Shown piece by piece: positions 1 to 7,246 of a DNA stretch of 7,246 nucleotides. A program made the translations under genes and the position numbers. Numbering within the stretch: the stretch's first letter is position 1; every line of letters starts with the position of its first letter. The stretch is from NCBI GenBank assembly GCA_023487615.1, contig JAMDBH010000116.1, positions 1-7,246 of the forward strand, in the 5' to 3' direction. The notes beneath the pieces are model-generated. The model had not been told where the DNA came from. It saw nothing but the letters and a program-made list of their open reading frames with translations, and searched no databases. This DNA comes from Gammaproteobacteria bacterium. Lineage in GTDB: Bacteria; Pseudomonadota; Gammaproteobacteria; SURF-13.

Positions 1-21
1 AGATATGATACCAGCAGGGCT
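1..21 (+). repeat. Left copy of a 21-bp inverted repeat (start of E1 alpha)
   Basis: The first 21 bases of the window (beginning AGATATGATACC and ending AGCAGGGCT) recur exactly as the reverse complement at 2721-2741. The repeat holds the ATG and first codons of the E1 alpha gene (MIPAGL). The copies diverge at base 22, although TCGGTA follows in both after a one-base offset. The left limit is set by the window edge, so the true repeat may be longer. A 21-base exact match is not expected by chance in 7 kb. Confidence 0.93.
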
Positions 22-973
22 ATCGGTAGCTGATTTGTTGGCTATGTATCGCAAGATGGTTCTGGCCCGCACTTTTGAGGATCAGGTCTATTATCTCTTC
101 CTGCGCGGCGGTATGCCCGGCACCGTGCACCAGTCGCAGGGACAGGAAGCGGTCGCCGTCGGTGTGAGCAGCGCGCTGCAACCCGGTGATTTCCTGATGG
201 CCGGCCACCGGCCCCACGGCCACGCGCTGGCAAAGGGCATCACCGCACGTGCGGCGATGGCCGAGTTGTTCGCCAAGGAAGCAGGGTGCAGCCGCGGCAA
301 GGGTGGCTCCATGCACCTGGGCGATCCTGACGTGGGCATGATCTGTTCTCTGGCGATTGTCGGCGCAGGCTGCACCATCGCTCCGGGCATGGCCTTAGCG
401 TTCAAGTTACGCGGGACGAAGCAGGTTGCCGCCACCATCTTTGGCGATGGCGGCTCCAACGAAGGCGCTTTCCACGAGGGGCTGAACTTTGCCGCCGTGC
501 GGCAACTCCCGGTGATATTTGTTTGTGAGAATAATCTGTACGGTGCTTCCACGGCCTACAACCAGGTATCGTTAGTGACTAACGTAGCCGACCGCGCCTG
601 CGCCTATGGCATCACCGGCCAGATCGCCGACGGCATGGACGTTTTGGCCGTTTATCAGGCTATGACCGAGGCTATCGCCCGTGCCCGCGCCGGTGGTGGC
701 CCGACCCTCTTGGAGTGCAAGACTTACCGCTTTGGCGGGCATAGCCGCAGCGACCGCACGGCCTATCGCCCGAAGGAGGAAGCGGAAGCCTGGAAACAGC
801 GAGACCCCATTACTCTCTTGGGCAATAGGTTGCTGGCCGAGGGTCTGGCAACCGACGAGCAACTGGCGGCGCTCCGGCGCGAGGTGGATGAAGAGGTTGC
901 CGACGCCATCACCTTCGCTCAAAACGCGCCCTCTCCGGCGGCTGAGGAGGCTTTGGAAGATGTCTTCGCTTAA
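5..973 (+). CDS. 2-oxoacid dehydrogenase E1 component, alpha subunit (pyruvate/acetoin dehydrogenase type)
   Basis: This is the thiamine-diphosphate-binding alpha subunit of an E1 component. With the beta subunit it decarboxylates a 2-oxoacid and passes the acyl group to the lipoyl arm of E2 in the cytoplasm. The 322-residue length is usual for the alpha2beta2 family. The TPP motif is clear: GDG at residues 147-149 and NN at 176-177. The conserved loop YRFGGHSRSD (241-250) carries the His and Ser residues typical of E1 alpha. The AELFAKEAGCSRGKGGSMH stretch (86-104) also fits the PDH/AcoA family. The ATG at 5 gives a normal N-terminus, but its ribosome binding site would lie beyond the left edge. 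A copy of this start with an AAGGAG site lies inverted at 2748-2721. The stop overlaps the next gene by 14 bases. Motifs do not separate pyruvate from acetoin or branched-chain substrates, so no symbol is given. Confidence 0.93.
   Translation: MIPAGLSVADLLAMYRKMVLARTFEDQVYYLFLRGGMPGTVHQSQGQEAVAVGVSSALQPGDFLMAGHRPHGHALAKGITARAAMAELFAKEAGCSRGKGGSMHLGDPDVGMICSLAIVGAGCTIAPGMALAFKLRGTKQVAATIFGDGGSNEGAFHEGLNFAAVRQLPVIFVCENNLYGASTAYNQVSLVTNVADRACAYGITGQIADGMDVLAVYQAMTEAIARARAGGGPTLLECKTYRFGGHSRSDRTAYRPKEEAEAWKQRDPITLLGNRLLAEGLATDEQLAALRREVDEEVADAITFAQNAPSPAAEEALEDVFA
944..950 (+). promoter_or_regulatory. Ribosome binding site for E1 beta (start at 960)
   Basis: GAGGAGG lies nine bases before the ATG at 960, inside the last codons of E1 alpha. 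It is a better Shine-Dalgarno than anything before the alternative ATG at 996, where only AAAGG is found 11 bases upstream. It therefore favours 960 and translational coupling to E1 alpha, though it also encodes EEA of E1 alpha and could be fortuitous. Confidence 0.6.
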
Positions 974-2042
974 ACTACTAAAGGTAAAAGAAGTGATGTC
1001 GGACCCACAAACAGGGGCTGCGAAACCGGAACGGCGGCTGACCATCGGAGAAGCCTTACGCGAAGCTATTGCCGAAGAGATGCGACGCGATGAATCGGTG
1101 TTTCTCATCGGTGAGGATATCGGTGTGCCGGGCGGCTTTGGGGGCGCGTTCGGCGTCTATCTAGGCTTGCCCGAAGAATTCGGGCACACGCGCATCATTG
1201 ACACGCCGATCAGCGAAAAGGCAGTTCTCGGCGCGGCCATCGGCGCGGCGATGATGGGGATGCGGCCCATCGCCGATTTGCAATACGGCGATTTCATCTA
1301 TTGCTGCATGGATGAGTTTGCCAACGAAGCGCCCAAGATTCGCTATATGTCGGGCGGCAAGCTCAAGATTCCGTTGGTATTCCGCGCGCCGGTAGGAGCG
1401 ACCCGCCGCGGGGCGCAACACGGTCAAAGCCCGGAAACTCTCGCCATGCACATCCCTGGCTGGAAGGTCGTTTGCGTGTCCGATGCCTACGATGCGAAGG
1501 GCTTGTTGAAGACCGCCGTGCGGGACGATAACCCGGTCGTCATCTTTGAACACAAACTTTTGTATGGTTCCAAAGGCCGCGAGCAGGCGGGCGGCTTTGA
1601 CCTGACCTGCCCGGTGCCGCAAGAAGAATACACGATTCCTTTTGGGCAGGCCAAGATACGCCGCGCGGGAAGCCACGTGACGGTGGTGGCGACGCACATC
1701 ATGCTCTACCGCGCTCTCGTCGCCGCGGAAACGCTGGCGCAAGAAGGCATCGAGGTAGAGGTGATTGACCCGCGCACACTGGTGCCGTTGGATAAAGAGA
1801 CGATTCTAAATTCCGTCGTGAAAACCGGGCGGCTGGTAACCGCCCACGAAGATAACCTGACGGCAGGCTGGGGGGCCGAGCTGGCCGCGCTGGCCGCCTC
1901 CGAGTGCTTCTATAACCTGGAAGCGCCGATTCAGCGGGTAGCAAGCTACGATGTCCCGATTCCTTTTGCGCCGGTCATGGAAGATTACGTGGTACCGAGC
2001 GTCGAGCGGATTATCAAGGCGATTCGCGCCACGCTCAAGTAG
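960..2042 (+). CDS. 2-oxoacid dehydrogenase E1 component, beta subunit
   Basis: This is the partner of E1 alpha, completing the TPP-dependent active site and docking onto E2. The 360-residue product has the transketolase pyrimidine-binding domain first (about 26-200) and the transketolase C-terminal domain after it (about 225-355). Family landmarks are GEDIGVPGG (51-59), RIIDTPISEKAVLGAAIG (78-95) and RRGAQHGQS (149-157). Glu86 aligns with the cofactor-activating Glu of DTPISE in human PDH E1 beta, and His154 with its active-site His. The end is also typical (DVPIPFAP, VERIIKAI). ATG 960 is chosen because GAGGAGG precedes it at good spacing and it overlaps the E1 alpha stop. ATG 996 (MSDPQTG) would give 348 residues and is a fair alternative, since similarity to the family starts only at about residue 26. 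In-frame sequence upstream of 960 is a shadow of E1 alpha. Confidence 0.93.
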   Translation: MSSLKLLKVKEVMSDPQTGAAKPERRLTIGEALREAIAEEMRRDESVFLIGEDIGVPGGFGGAFGVYLGLPEEFGHTRIIDTPISEKAVLGAAIGAAMMGMRPIADLQYGDFIYCCMDEFANEAPKIRYMSGGKLKIPLVFRAPVGATRRGAQHGQSPETLAMHIPGWKVVCVSDAYDAKGLLKTAVRDDNPVVIFEHKLLYGSKGREQAGGFDLTCPVPQEEYTIPFGQAKIRRAGSHVTVVATHIMLYRALVAAETLAQEGIEVEVIDPRTLVPLDKETILNSVVKTGRLVTAHEDNLTAGWGAELAALAASECFYNLEAPIQRVASYDVPIPFAPVMEDYVVPSVERIIKAIRATLK

Positions 2043-2063
2043 GTGCTCACCGCAACAGCTAAA

Positions 2064-2160
2064 CCTCTCCCCCCCTGCCCCGCACGGCCTGCGGCCCGCG
2101 GGGCTTCCCCCTCCTCTCCCCGCTGCGGGGAGAGGAGGGGGCAAAGGGGGAGAAGAGAGG
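2064..2160. repeat. Compound palindromic G+C-rich element between E1 beta and E2
   Basis: Most of the 163-base gap between E1 beta and E2 is a nested palindrome. Its core is a perfect 17-bp inverted repeat (CCCCCTCCTCTCCCCGC at 2107-2123, reverse complement at 2125-2141) around one central base. A second stem (GCCCCGC 2077-2083 with GCGGGGC 2098-2104, plus inner GGCC/GGCC at 2086-2089 and 2093-2096) precedes it. CCTCTC (2064-2069) and GAGAGG (2155-2160) bound the whole. No T-run follows, so it is not a standard intrinsic terminator. It looks like the dispersed REP-like C-tract palindromes seen in many G+C-rich genomes. In mRNA it could lower or uncouple expression of E2, or stabilise the upstream message. 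Confidence 0.85.
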
Positions 2161-2192
2161 TCGTGCCGCCTTCATACCCCTAGACAATTATT

Positions 2193-2196
2193 AGGA
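2193..2196 (+). promoter_or_regulatory. Ribosome binding site for E2
   Basis: AGGA stands nine bases before the ATG at 2206. The site is modest, but it is the only plausible one and agrees with the lipoyl domain beginning a few residues after this ATG. Confidence 0.5.
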
Positions 2197-2205
2197 TGAA
2201 TACCG

Positions 2206-3003
2206 ATGTCAGAAGAGATCAACATGCCCTCCTTAGGGCAGACCACCGAAGATATCAGGATATTGGTGTGGCATAAGGCCGAAGGCGATGCGGTCAAACA
2301 GGGAGACGTGCTCCTGGAAGTGGAGACCGACAAGGCGACGTTGGAGGTCGAAGCATACACTTCCGGCGTTCTCCTGAAGATCATACGACTTGCAGGTGAG
2401 GTTGTGGAAGCCGGGAGCCCTATTGCCATCATCGGCCAAGTGGGCGAGTCCGCCGCAACTCCCGCTCAGGCTGCTGCCGTACCGGCTTCTACCACCGTCG
2501 CTCCGTCTCCCTTTCCGGCTCAGGCAGTCGCGGCTGTGCCGGGGAAGGTACTGGCTTCGCCGGTGGCGCGCAAGCTGGCGCTGGATCGGGGGATTGACAT
2601 CGCCCAGGTGCCCGGCAGCGGCCCCGGCGGACGCGTGGAGAAAGAGGACGTCCTGGCATATGTGCAGCGTAAAGAGGCTGCCGCGCTTGTCTCCGCCCTC
2701 GCCGCGCCTCAGATTACCGAAGCCCTGCTGGTATCATATCTGCTCCTTCATGATTATTTAGCCTTGAGGCGGAACCTAATTGAGACGGCCATGACAATGT
2801 TTGAACTTGCGGCCGCTGCCACAGGGGCAGGGGTCATTGCGTTGCGCGCGGGCAAAGCTGCGCTGCACTTCCGCTTCTTCTTCTGCCAGATAAGCCATCA
2901 CGTTGGCGGGTGCGCGCTCGGCCTTCAGCTCTGCGGCCATGACGCGCATAGGTTTATCCACGTGGTTAAAGAAAGCCTTGAAACCGGCGCACAGGTAATT
3001 TAA
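2206..3003 (+). CDS. Dihydrolipoamide acyltransferase (E2) N-terminal part: lipoyl and E3-binding domains; catalytic domain missing, aberrant C-terminus
   Basis: E2 carries acyl groups on a lipoylated lysine and forms the core of the complex. Residues 1-78 are a full biotinyl/lipoyl domain with ETDKATLEVEA, making Lys43 the lipoylation site. An Ala/Pro-rich linker follows (82-112), then a peripheral subunit-binding domain (about 114-153; KVLASPVARKLALDRGIDI, GSGPGGRVEKEDVLAYV). The ~230-residue acyltransferase domain that should come next is absent: there is no HXXXD-type motif and the ORF is only 265 residues against a usual 400 or more. Residues up to about 171 (AAPQITE) still read like an E2 linker. 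Residues 172-179 come from the inverted copy of the E1 alpha start, and residues 191-265 are antisense to the maturase gene. The tail is thus non-native, produced by an inverted junction at about 2710-2720. The gene is either broken in this genome or only appears so because of a chimeric join. A deliberate short lipoyl/E3-binding protein is less likely. Confidence 0.85.
   Translation: MSEEINMPSLGQTTEDIRILVWHKAEGDAVKQGDVLLEVETDKATLEVEAYTSGVLLKIIRLAGEVVEAGSPIAIIGQVGESAATPAQAAAVPASTTVAPSPFPAQAVAAVPGKVLASPVARKLALDRGIDIAQVPGSGPGGRVEKEDVLAYVQRKEAAALVSALAAPQITEALLVSYLLLHDYLALRRNLIETAMTMFELAAAATGAGVIALRAGKAALHFRFFFCQISHHVGGCALGLQLCGHDAHRFIHVVKESLETGAQVI
2721..2741 (-). repeat. Right copy of the 21-bp inverted repeat (orphan E1 alpha start)
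   Basis: Read on the minus strand, 2741-2721 is identical to window bases 1-21. It holds an ATG at 2737-2735 followed by codons for IPAGL, then CGG and a stop at 2716-2714, so only MIPAGLR is encoded here. After the 21 identical bases comes TCGGTA, also present at 23-28 of the window one base later. Beyond about 2710 the strand is the reverse complement of E2 linker sequence, with no resemblance to E1 alpha. It marks the join between E2-derived and maturase-linked DNA. Confidence 0.92.
2743..2748 (-). promoter_or_regulatory. Orphan Shine-Dalgarno for the inverted E1 alpha start
   Basis: On the minus strand AAGGAG precedes the orphan ATG (2737) by five bases. It is a strong ribosome binding site placed 27 bases beyond the maturase stop codon. 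Its fit to the E1 alpha start suggests that the intact E1 alpha gene normally follows the maturase in the same direction, about 38 bases downstream. Confidence 0.7.
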
Positions 3004-4104
3004 TCCAGGCTCCCCATCGGGTGTATAGATGACACGATCCTTAGGGCAGCCGCCGTTGCACACGAACCGCACCTCGCACTCGCGGCAATAGCGCGGCAGC
3101 GTGTCTTTCTTCGCCTGGCCGAACCGCATTTGCTGCTCCGACGCCACCATATCCAACAGCGGGATCTCTTGGATGTTTCCCAGTTTGTACCGCGGTTCCA
3201 CAAAATGGTCACACGAATAGAGATCGCCGTTGTGCTCCATCGCCAATGCGCTGCCGCAGGTCTCCTCAAAGATGCAGAGCCCCGGTCGCTGGCCTACCCA
3301 GGCCGCGAGCGCCACGTCGAAAATCTGCACGAAGACGCGCCCCACGTCGCGCCGTACCCATTCGTCAAATATGGCGATGAGAAAATCGCCATATTGCCGC
3401 GCCGTCACCGAGCGGGGTGTAACCTTCTCGCCTTCTTGAAAACCGGTGCCGTTATCTCGTTCTACAATAGGGATGAACTGGATAAACTGCGTGCCAATCT
3501 CGTCCCGCAAGAAACGATAGACATCCAACGGCTGCCCGGCGTTGGCCGCGTGCACGGTTGTCAGGATGTTGAACTCTACGTGATGCCGCTTCAGAAGCGC
3601 GATACCGGCCATCACCCGGTCGAAGGTCGGCTGGCCTCCCTTGTCCACCCGATAGAAGTCGTGCAGGTTGCGCGGCCCATCCAGGCTGACACCCAGGAGG
3701 AAGTCATTGTCACGGAAGAACTCGCACCACGTCTCATCAAGGGTTGTGCCGTTGGTTTGCAACGCATTGTGCACGCGCATTCCCGGACGTTTGTATTTCT
3801 GCTGCAGCGACACCGCCAACCGGAAGAAATCCAACCCCATCAGTGTGGGCTCACCCCCTTGCCAGGCAAAGGTGACTTCCGGCACACGCTGGGCGGCGAT
3901 GTATTGGCGGGTGTATTCTTCCAGCAGGTCGTTTGCCATGCGGAAACGGCTGCCGGGGTAGAGCATCTCCTTTGAGAGAAAATAGCAGTAAGCACAATCC
4001 AGATTACAGATCGCACCCCGCGGCTTTAGCATGATATGAAACGCGGGCGGGGCATCTTGTTTCGGATCAGTCGTCGCTTCCATCTCTTTTATCCACCGGC
4101 TCAT
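2776..4104 (-). CDS. Anaerobic sulfatase-maturating enzyme (radical SAM, SPASM) with C-terminal SEC-C motif
   Basis: This is a cytoplasmic radical SAM enzyme that oxidises the active-site Cys or Ser of a sulfatase to formylglycine without oxygen. The 442-residue product has the CX3CX2C cluster motif at Cys33, Cys37 and Cys40 (CNLDCAYC) and the GGEP SAM motif at 83-86. Eight further cysteines (277, 283, 298, 340, 343, 349, 353, 372) match the spacing of the two auxiliary [4Fe-4S] clusters of the SPASM domain in characterised anSMEs. Asp299 in YSCDH aligns with their proposed catalytic Asp. Residues 424-439 (DPCPCGSGRKFKHCHG) are a SEC-C zinc-binding motif with Cys426, Cys428, Cys437 and His438, an extra tail absent from the minimal family. 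ATG 4104 is the longest start. ATG 4083 (MEATTDPK) has GGTGG nine bases upstream and may be the true one. The sulfatase gene lies 69 bases upstream on the same strand and is the obvious client. Confidence 0.93.
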   Translation of the reverse strand: MSRWIKEMEATTDPKQDAPPAFHIMLKPRGAICNLDCAYCYFLSKEMLYPGSRFRMANDLLEEYTRQYIAAQRVPEVTFAWQGGEPTLMGLDFFRLAVSLQQKYKRPGMRVHNALQTNGTTLDETWCEFFRDNDFLLGVSLDGPRNLHDFYRVDKGGQPTFDRVMAGIALLKRHHVEFNILTTVHAANAGQPLDVYRFLRDEIGTQFIQFIPIVERDNGTGFQEGEKVTPRSVTARQYGDFLIAIFDEWVRRDVGRVFVQIFDVALAAWVGQRPGLCIFEETCGSALAMEHNGDLYSCDHFVEPRYKLGNIQEIPLLDMVASEQQMRFGQAKKDTLPRYCRECEVRFVCNGGCPKDRVIYTPDGEPGLNYLCAGFKAFFNHVDKPMRVMAAELKAERAPANVMAYLAEEEAEVQRSFARAQRNDPCPCGSGRKFKHCHGRLN

Positions 4105-4173
4105 ATATAACGTTCATCCCAAGCGTCCGACCTTCACAATTTCTGTGACCGCACGAATTACCATACCCTAATC

Positions 4174-5733
4174 CTAAGCACCGCTTACCATACGCGGTAG
4201 GCTGAAGTCACTCATACACACCTGATCCAGAAGCAATGCCGTCAAGTCGCTGCGCAAGGAACGGCGGTCGGGCTCGGCCCACAGGTTGTGCAATTCCTGT
4301 GGGTCTTCCTGGAGGTCGAAGAGTTCCCCCCACGGCTGCCCCACGTACCAGGTAAATCTATAGCGCTCGGTAACCAACGTTCGCAGCCGTAAGCCGGAGG
4401 CATCGTCGTCGTGGTCCACCAAGGCACTTTCGCGCGTAGGCCCAACGCCACCTTCCAGAATAGGCCGCAGCGAATGGCCGGGCCACGGCGCGGGTGCGTT
4501 GGGGTGCAGCGGCTTCTCCGCGTCGGGATACACCGGGACCGGCACGCCGCAGAGATCGAGAATCGTCGGCGCAAAATCCAAAAGACTGACGATGTTACCG
4601 GAAGCTCTCCCCGGCACAATGTGGCCCGGCCAACTCCAGATGAAGGGAACCCGGATCAAGCCGTCAAAGTGGAAAGGCCCTTTTTGTTGCAGCCAATGAT
4701 CACCCATCATGTCGCCGTGATCGGAGAGATAGATGACTATGGTATTCTCCTGTAGTCCCAGATCTTCCAACGCATCCAACACGCGGCCCAGGTTGGCGTC
4801 AACGTTGCTGACCATGGCGTAGGTGCGGGCCATGATGGTAGATGTGGTATCGTACCAGCGGTTCAACGGCGTCGGCATTCCTACCACCCGGTATGGCTCG
4901 GTCTGGACGCGAGCAAAAAAAGGTGGCAAATCGGTCAATTCCCCCTCGCGCCGCGTGGGTGTTAGCATCTCTGCCGGATCATACAAGCTAAAATAGGGGT
5001 CGGGAGCGTGATAGGGATGGTGGGGATCGGGAAAGGAGCACCAACAGAAGAAAGGCTGTTGGGTATTGCTCTGCTCTCGAAGGAAGTCAATGACGTGATC
5101 GGCAATCCAATGGCTGTGGTGCAGTTCAGCCGGGACGTGGGATTTGAATGTAGTTTGCCAGCCTTCACCCTTCTCTTTCTTATGCTGCTCTATGGCTGCA
5201 ACTGCTTCGGGCATCTCGTGCAGGAGCCAATTCCGGTACTCGCCCCAAAAGAAATCACCATGCCCGCAGACTAGATGCGCGCTTTGCAGGCCGTAGTAGG
5301 GCACCGGCAGTTGCCCGATGCGCCCGTTAAACCACATCTCTCTCGCCTCCGGCCACTCTACCGGGTTCAATTTGGCCGGGTCTGCGCCGTTCCGGGTGAC
5401 GAAAGGAGTCAGATGGAATTTTCCCACCCCATGGGTACGATAACCCGCCGTCGTCAGCGCAGAGCCAATCGTGGGAAGGCGCGGGTCAAGCGACATGCCG
5501 TTGGCGCGCATGCGGTGGCCGCGTACGCTCAACCCCGTCCAGAGGGTGGCACGCGATGGAGAACAGATAGGATTATTCACGTAACAACGTTGAAACCGCA
5601 CTCCACTCTCGGCCAGCCGGTCCAGGTTCGGCGTTTGGATGAGCGCGTTACCCGCGCAGCCGATGTGATCCGCGCGGTGCTGGTCGGTGACGAAGCATAA
5701 TACGTTTGGACGTTGTTTGTCTGCTGTAGCCAT
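4174..5733 (-). CDS. Cys-type sulfatase (alkaline phosphatase superfamily arylsulfatase)
   Basis: This enzyme hydrolyses a sulfate ester, probably on a sugar, using a formylglycine made from Cys57. The sulfatase signature PICSPSRATLWTG (55-67) contains CXPXR with Cys57 and Arg61. Other expected residues are the N-terminal metal site in VTDQHRAD (15-22; Asp17, with Gln18 where many members have Asp), GKFH (Lys105, His107), SDHGD (Asp338, His339) and Lys351 in QQKGPF. The C-terminus has the common family subdomain (ELFDLQEDPQELHNL, 470-484). Length 519 is normal. There is no signal peptide, so it is predicted cytoplasmic, as needed for modification by the cytoplasmic maturase next door. ATG 5733 is chosen because GAGGAG lies six bases upstream. 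The in-frame ATG at 5772 would add 13 residues that span this site. The substrate cannot be told from sequence; the neighbouring GH127 suggests a sulfated arabinose-containing glycan. Confidence 0.94.
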   Translation of the reverse strand: MATADKQRPNVLCFVTDQHRADHIGCAGNALIQTPNLDRLAESGVRFQRCYVNNPICSPSRATLWTGLSVRGHRMRANGMSLDPRLPTIGSALTTAGYRTHGVGKFHLTPFVTRNGADPAKLNPVEWPEAREMWFNGRIGQLPVPYYGLQSAHLVCGHGDFFWGEYRNWLLHEMPEAVAAIEQHKKEKGEGWQTTFKSHVPAELHHSHWIADHVIDFLREQSNTQQPFFCWCSFPDPHHPYHAPDPYFSLYDPAEMLTPTRREGELTDLPPFFARVQTEPYRVVGMPTPLNRWYDTTSTIMARTYAMVSNVDANLGRVLDALEDLGLQENTIVIYLSDHGDMMGDHWLQQKGPFHFDGLIRVPFIWSWPGHIVPGRASGNIVSLLDFAPTILDLCGVPVPVYPDAEKPLHPNAPAPWPGHSLRPILEGGVGPTRESALVDHDDDASGLRLRTLVTERYRFTWYVGQPWGELFDLQEDPQELHNLWAEPDRRSLRSDLTALLLDQVCMSDFSLPRMVSGA

Positions 5734-5739
5734 CTGATT

Positions 5740-5745
5740 CTCCTC
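5740..5745 (-). promoter_or_regulatory. Ribosome binding site of the sulfatase gene
   Basis: On the minus strand GAGGAG stands six bases before the ATG at 5733. It decides the start against the in-frame ATG at 5772. In the 88-base gap to the GH127 gene I see no convincing promoter or terminator, so the two genes are probably cotranscribed. Confidence 0.8.
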
Positions 5746-5821
5746 TTCCCGGAGTGTGGCGGTCTCGCACAATAGGAATTGGATAGGGTCTCTTGTTAGC
5801 CCCTAGCGATGCCTTGAAAGC

Positions 5822-7246
5822 TCACGTGCACGTGTAGGGCAGCCAGACCTGGTAAGTCACGTTGGTTGCCGCCTCGGTGTTGGTAATGACGACCTCGCGA
5901 TAGGCTTTTGGATCGCGGTTCCCGGCTTCGTAGAAAGGAACGAGCGTCACTTCCTCAGCAGATCTTTTGCCAGCGCAAGCCGCCAGGTCGTGGTAGCGTT
6001 CTTTCTCGCGCCATGCGCCTGCACCTGGGGCGGGCTTGAGCACTCCCGCAGGCGCCACCAGATGCACCACGCCGGAACCCTCATCCTTGACCACGCGTAT
6101 ACCCTGGGCCGGATTCGCTTTATTCAGCACCAGCGTGATGTCATCCAGCAGACGCCCTTGCGGCAGATACGAAGCATCTACGGCATAGACCAGCGGCCCG
6201 CGCAGAACGGCCACGCGTCCGGCATTGCCGAGAACATCCGTCACCACGTGCACCGGCATCTCCATGTCCAATTCCACCGTGTCGCCCGCCGACCAGGTGC
6301 GCTCACAGACCAGGTAGCCCTTGCCATCCGGTTGCACGTCGGATACTGCGCCGTTGATCTTCAACTGCCAGGCGCGGCACCAACCCGGCACCCGCAGGCG
6401 CAGAGCGAAGCGCGCAGCCTCCTGCGGGTCGAGGCGCAGACGCACTTTCCCGCCAAAGGGGTACTCGCCTTCCTGAGTGACCTTCAGCTTTATACCCGAA
6501 GCCAGCGTGAGCATGGCCTCAGCGGGTTCGTAGAAATGCACCGCCACGCCGTCGTCCGTGATGCCAAAGACGTGCTGGGGCATCTGTGCCAAGGCGCGCA
6601 CGCCGCGCGTGGGGCAGCAATCGGGGTCGGTATGCCAGCGGTAGCGTTTATGATCGCGTAGACCCATGTAGTAAGCCCAGCCGCGGCCATCGGGTGACTG
6701 CGCCGCGAGCAAGTGATTGTAGAGTGCCTGTTCTGCCATGTCGAAGAAGCGCGCTTCGCCGGTGAGCCGCCCCAGGCTCAGGTTGAGATACAGCCAGGTC
6801 ATGGTGACACAGGTTTCACCGAGGCGAAAGAGGCCGTCGTTCCGCAAGAGGTAGTCGGGGAAGAAGTGCTCACCTGTGCTGGCCGATCCGGTGATATACA
6901 GATGGTGCTGAACGATGTCGTCCCAGGCAATGAGTACCGGTTGCAGATAGTGCTCGTCGCCCGTGGCGCGGTAGAATTCCGTCAAACCGGTAAAATCAAT
7001 GAGCATCTCCGCGGCCTTACCGTTTGCCGTGCCCGCCACACCTCTGCCGGAAAGAAGCGAGGTGCAGATGGCGACCCCACCGGCCGCTTCCCAATCCTCA
7101 TCCACCAGCCAGCGCCCAAAATCCAGGTAGCGTTGGTCGCCCGTTTCCCAATAGAGCCACATCATCGGTTCCAGAATGGCGGAGGAAGCCATGCCGCCGT
7201 GCGGCCCGTTATGCAGATATCCGCGGCCCGGCCCAAAGTCCTGCAG
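5822..7246 (-). CDS. GH127/DUF1680 family glycoside hydrolase (beta-L-arabinofuranosidase-like), 5' end beyond the window
   Basis: This is a retaining glycoside hydrolase of the DUF1680 family, whose characterised members release beta-L-arabinofuranose using a zinc-bound cysteine nucleophile. The frame is open to the right edge: 18 codons precede the ATG at 7192, including LHNGPHGG leading into MASSAILEPM. The gene therefore starts outside, and 474 of a usual 600-700 residues are seen. Counting from the edge, key residues are Glu126 in GSASTGEHF (likely acid/base), Glu144 and Cys146 in GETC, and the Cys210-Cys211 pair in DPDCCPTRG. These match the E-X-C plus CC zinc/nucleophile set of Bifidobacterium HypBA1. 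The alpha/alpha-barrel part ends near residue 225, and a beta-sandwich part follows, with FALRLRVPGW and VLRGPLVYAVDA as family landmarks. Whether it is secreted cannot be judged because the N-terminus is missing. It is the first visible gene of the sulfatase/maturase cluster. Confidence 0.93.
   Translation of the reverse strand: MQDFGPGRGYLHNGPHGGMASSAILEPMMWLYWETGDQRYLDFGRWLVDEDWEAAGGVAICTSLLSGRGVAGTANGKAAEMLIDFTGLTEFYRATGDEHYLQPVLIAWDDIVQHHLYITGSASTGEHFFPDYLLRNDGLFRLGETCVTMTWLYLNLSLGRLTGEARFFDMAEQALYNHLLAAQSPDGRGWAYYMGLRDHKRYRWHTDPDCCPTRGVRALAQMPQHVFGITDDGVAVHFYEPAEAMLTLASGIKLKVTQEGEYPFGGKVRLRLDPQEAARFALRLRVPGWCRAWQLKINGAVSDVQPDGKGYLVCERTWSAGDTVELDMEMPVHVVTDVLGNAGRVAVLRGPLVYAVDASYLPQGRLLDDITLVLNKANPAQGIRVVKDEGSGVVHLVAPAGVLKPAPGAGAWREKERYHDLAACAGKRSAEEVTLVPFYEAGNRDPKAYREVVITNTEAATNVTYQVWLPYTCT
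5823..5834. repeat. 12-bp perfect palindrome at the GH127 stop codon
   Basis: CACGTGCACGTG is fully self-complementary and overlaps the last codons and stop of the GH127 gene. It is too short and lacks a U-tract, so it is not a terminator. It could be chance, or an operator-like site for the downstream sulfatase. Confidence 0.35.

Follow-up and report, generated by a model that had tools for sequence, protein, structure and literature searches.

An exact inverted repeat around the dehydrogenase genes

Does the inverted repeat that bounds the dehydrogenase genes on this metagenome contig record an inversion in a bacterial genome, or did it arise when the DNA was copied in vitro and assembled? 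The window, by which we mean the whole stretch of 7,246 nucleotides analysed here, carries three dehydrogenase genes on the plus strand. E1 alpha of a pyruvate dehydrogenase-type 2-oxo acid dehydrogenase complex (5-973; PF00676) is complete, and its start is the same in all seven aligned relatives. It is followed by E1 beta (996-2042 from the start codon as read here; PF02779 and PF02780) and by the N-terminal part of E2 (2206-2724), which has a lipoyl domain (PF00364) and an E3-binding domain (PF02817) and is cut before the catalytic domain. Three genes on the minus strand make up the rest: an anaerobic sulfatase maturase with radical SAM, SPASM and SEC-C domains (2776-4104; TIGR03942, PF04055, PF13186 and PF02810), a sulfatase (4174-5772; PF00884), and a GH127-type glycoside hydrolase (5822-7246; PF07944, PF20736 and PF20737) that is cut by the contig end. 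The sulfatase contains CSPSR at 5565-5551 on the minus strand, which we take to be the motif targeted by sulfatase maturases, and the maturase gene adjoins it. Between E1 beta and E2, a strong hairpin at 2064-2178 has perfect arms of 17 nt and a DNA fold z-score of -5.7. This hairpin is a dispersed palindromic repeat: the same stretch takes 22 of the 40 listed matches of the window in genome G030, some of them being both strands of one hairpin.

The sequence-only reading had reported that bases 1-21 equal the reverse complement of 2721-2741 and that both arms contain the E1 alpha start codon. Self-comparison of the window confirmed both statements, with 21 of 21 bases identical and the ATG at 5-7 on the plus strand and at 2737-2735 on the minus strand. 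This pair is the longest exact inverted match in the window with arms more than 100 nt apart. In 100 first-order Markov simulations of the window, the longest distant match measured 11-15 nt, against the 21 observed, and 15 was reached in only two simulations; over the whole window, about 1.3e-5 inverted matches of 21 nt would be expected. The repeat is far beyond chance. Just inside the arms, the flanks show a further, imperfect likeness to each other, with a score reached by 37 of 2000 shuffles and by 72 of 2000 random pairs from the window. This extra similarity is weakly above chance and could be a hint of an older repeat.

Gene order in a relative

The gene-order comparison that the sequence-only reading had called for rested mainly on a single locus, L083, on contig C114 (11,940 bases) of genome G030. 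There, one strand carries in succession a sulfatase truncated at the contig end, then maturase, E1 alpha, E1 beta and an E2 that is complete at 395 amino acids, and the maturase stop codon overlaps the E1 alpha ATG. The maturase and E1 beta of the window are 89% and 93% identical to their counterparts in L083, the latter over 343 residues. Translated from L083, E2 and maturase are identical throughout to the proteins P0002 (the second-best E2 match) and P0123 (the 89% identical maturase), which are listed as Anaerolineae bacterium. By blastn, window 2-2041 aligned with L083 9916-7877 and window 2202-2669 with L083 7728-7249, both on the minus strand, whereas window 2723-4118 aligned with L083 9899-11271 on the plus strand, beginning within E1 alpha. 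Since the two halves of the window match opposite strands of L083, the right half reads as the region upstream of E1 alpha in reverse; on these alignments it would be E1 alpha's upstream neighbour, reversed and joined to mid-E2.

The two arms differ in standing. The left arm (1-21, plus strand), at the contig edge, consists of a 4-nt leader, the ATG and the next codons, and is collinear with the E1 alpha start of L083 with 2 mismatches in 21, as expected for the native start. The right arm (2721-2741, minus strand) appears to be E1 alpha's own start in a second, reversed copy, because the blastn alignment switches strand against L083 there, resuming at 2723 on the other strand. Beside it, AAGGAG (2748-2743) lies 5 nt upstream of the second E1 alpha ATG on the minus strand. 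The same hexamer precedes E1 alpha in L083, where leader and arm are conserved together, and this ribosome-binding site would natively be E1 alpha's. The earlier proposal that flipping 22-2720 brings E1 alpha behind AAGGAG, right after the maturase, thus agrees with the gene order of L083.

Linkage of the maturase to E1 alpha was seen in this one relative only. In a draw of 396 genomes of the class, a relative's E2 as query gave two matches at E 1e-90, in G030 and G231, and in a draw of 400 genomes of the phylum, a relative's E1 alpha gave one match at E 1e-130, in G030; the family and order sets around G030 comprise one genome each, G030 itself. The G231 locus (L084) has E1 alpha, E1 beta and E2 in order and no maturase match within its 18,001 bases. 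A contig scan of genomes gave at least 80 further E1 alpha loci, at most 58% identical to the E1 alpha of the window. E1 beta lies just downstream on the same strand in 78 of the 80 listed (the exceptions are L017 and L042), and none of the 80 has a maturase match at E 1e-5, so that these loci have no bearing on the maturase junction.

The GH127 and sulfatase genes have their counterparts on another contig of G030, C375 (6798 bases, of which 1-6755 form locus L086), where they run in the same direction and encode proteins 84% and 85% identical to those of the window, the latter over 519 residues. A second sulfatase match in L086 (5944-6753, corresponding to residues 14-283 of the window sulfatase) runs to base 6753, and the end of the L083 contig (11381-11938) lies inside a sulfatase (residues 347-532). 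The two contigs may therefore adjoin across an assembly gap, the sulfatase pieces possibly being one gene, which would give G030 the order GH127, sulfatase, sulfatase, maturase, E1 alpha, E1 beta and E2. The window has one sulfatase only at that place. Further open reading frames follow E2 on the same strand in L083 (within 2163-11238); by eye they are presumably a GH4-type enzyme, a large glycoside hydrolase, an isomerase and a dehydrogenase. L083 may represent a locus for sulfated glycans that has a dehydrogenase complex incorporated in it.

The break in E2

Protein searches, in which about 8000 candidates were scored each, found five close E2 proteins of 381-399 amino acids, sharing 66-77% identity with the window in the part that was searched. 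All five full-length proteins align with the window up to the residues EA at codon 173 (window 2724). After that codon three of the five continue with PRHRRA and the other two with SRPRRT or SRTWRA, whereas the window reads LLVSYL, the translation of the reversed E1 alpha start. In L083, the reversed arm finds at best a site with 10 mismatches in 21 within E2, far from the 2 mismatches at the E1 alpha start. The catalytic parts of the five relatives, searched in the window, gave nothing of weight (best E = 0.09), in line with the earlier description of E2 as truncated. With whole E2 proteins as tblastn queries, the match ended at 2724 for one of the five (P0002) and reached 2784-2820 with weak tails for the other four. 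Scored alone, the tails beyond 2724 were equalled or exceeded by 19 to 149 of 1000 shuffled tails across the five proteins; the lowest count, 19 for P0005, is not nothing, and we regard these tails as similarity close to chance. Beyond 2724, the DNA of the window agrees with L083 in its E1 alpha start and its maturase end, at 81% over 42 nt and 95% over 43 nt. Taken from these sequence comparisons, a chimeric junction is indicated at about 2721-2725, and the repeat arms are probably not a pair of native repeats.

Rearrangement in the genome

A real inversion across the two 21-bp repeats, either fixed or switching, had been offered as one of two explanations of the window. Staggered breaks, too, can leave short inverted duplications. 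A segment of 2.7 kb flanked by exact inverted repeats has the appearance of such an inversion, and genomic invertons are a known phenomenon in bacteria (PMC11892184). Like these invertons, the window has short exact inverted repeats around a segment; unlike them, one of its repeats looks like a fresh copy of the other rather than native at its place, and it breaks the E2 gene. Judged from the relatives, the repeats are not both native: the arm is absent from the E2 of L083, and the sequence at that place differs in all five aligned relatives. For this reason we reject recombination between repeats that already existed. The gene order of L083 and the change of the E2 frame at the right arm oppose such an inversion as well, and the same three observations support the preference for an artefact expressed in the sequence-only reading. 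Furthermore, the orientation in the window parts E1 alpha from its conserved leader, the coincidence of the contig edge with the outer end of the repeat would be fortuitous, and the Pfam matches of the window's six proteins include no recombinase family, an invertase being able to act from elsewhere. An inversion across the repeats is very unlikely.

A genuine inverted duplication, consisting of the upstream region, E1 alpha to half of E2, and the upstream region reversed, could arise by template switching during replication in the cell. It would yield exactly the sequence of the window, including the left edge, where the contig would meet its own reverse complement. Such a kilobase-scale duplication would have to be kept in the population, and it was not seen in the one relative with the linkage of maturase to E1 alpha (L083); we consider it extremely improbable. 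Taken more broadly, it is very unlikely that any genuine rearrangement, inversion or inverted duplication, in an uncultured relative of Anaerolineae detached the dehydrogenase genes from the sulfatase-maturase operon and truncated E2, with the repeat made by the rearrangement rather than causing it.

The contig edge and the assembly

Base 1 is most likely a true contig edge, the maturase and E1 alpha of the window being listed on a contig of 7246 bases. Its end lies 21 nt beyond the branch point, which is what an overlap in an assembly graph would leave. Left of base 1 one would expect the native upstream region, which is already present, reversed, in the contig. A graph assembler would meet a branch at 21/22 and leave an overlap of its k, and a k of 21, a common smallest value in de Bruijn assemblers, would give the observed length. 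We infer that the 21 nt represent such an assembly overlap. As a control, we inspected the 170 ends of 85 loci for inverted copies of at least 11 nt in their own locus and found one, in L076; many of these ends, that of L076 included, are arbitrary cuts, so the control bears on chance and not on contig ends. The last 69 bases of L076 recur inverted elsewhere in that locus. A literature search for assembly artefacts that involve inverted repeats yielded no paper.

The familiar value of k also speaks for a pure assembly misjoin without any chimeric molecule, for which the E2 of the organism and the reverse of its E1 alpha would have to share 21 nt. Against this stand the E2 of L083, which lacks the arm, and the five aligned relatives, which differ after codon 173. 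On account of both, E2 and reversed E1 alpha probably share about 5 nt natively, which would not suffice for a join unless reads crossed it. A misjoin of this kind is highly improbable.

A probable fold-back chimera formed in vitro

The contig is very probably an in vitro fold-back, or inverted, chimera rather than an inversion, as suggested by the strand switch and the E2 break. In the organism, one strand would carry all the genes in the order GH127, sulfatase, maturase, E1 alpha, E1 beta and E2. A strand growing in vitro through E1 alpha and E1 beta and half-way into E2 would come off its template, and its freed 3' end (ending in GAAGCCC) could anneal to the sense strand close by, at GGGCT (17-21) in the E1 alpha start. 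Extended from there, it would copy back over the start of E1 alpha and on into the maturase region in reverse. With U for the sequence upstream of E1 alpha, the resulting molecule would run from U through the loop to the reverse complement of U. An assembler that can use U only once would then start the contig 21 nt outside the branch point and continue through the loop into reversed U. Should the native E2 have Pro next, as three of the five relatives do, the joined pieces would share AGCCC, about 5 nt.

Chimeras of this type are described for multiple displacement amplification (MDA). In one report, 406 of 475 chimeras were inverted, 337 of these 406 joined segments less than 10 kb apart, inverted chimeras fell off with distance, and complementarity extended up to 21 nt (PMC1855051). 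Another found overlaps of mostly 5-8 nt, peaking at 6 nt, and distances that were commonest at 250-300 nt and reached from 0 to more than 5,000 nt (PMC4595205). As in these accounts, the joint in the window is inverted: its halves align to opposite strands of L083, the one relative compared. Likewise, the joined segments are native neighbours less than 10 kb apart, as maturase, E1 alpha, E1 beta and E2 are contiguous in L083 and span about 2.7 kb in the window. A native overlap of about 5 nt, as judged from the relatives, would make the complementarity at the switch short as well. Unlike the bulk of the published inverted chimeras, the segments lie 2.7 kb apart, within the published range and far above the peak (PMC4595205), and the joint is known from an assembled contig rather than from reads. 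The in vitro nature of the copying, by MDA or a similar step, is our inference; other template-switching steps would look the same as MDA, and the source sample may not have been amplified. Against a chimera, the chimeric molecule must have been well represented, because the assembler took the chimeric path.

Implications for the dehydrogenase locus

The odd gene order of this contig is probably not biology and, on present evidence, the repeat is not a biological inversion. The contig should consequently not be cited in support of a phase-variable dehydrogenase block or of a complex without E2. A contig end that recurs inverted within the same contig offers a simple flag for such chimeras. Behind the junction, the comparison with L083 points to a probable native operon in which the sulfatase maturase runs straight into the 2-oxo acid dehydrogenase complex.
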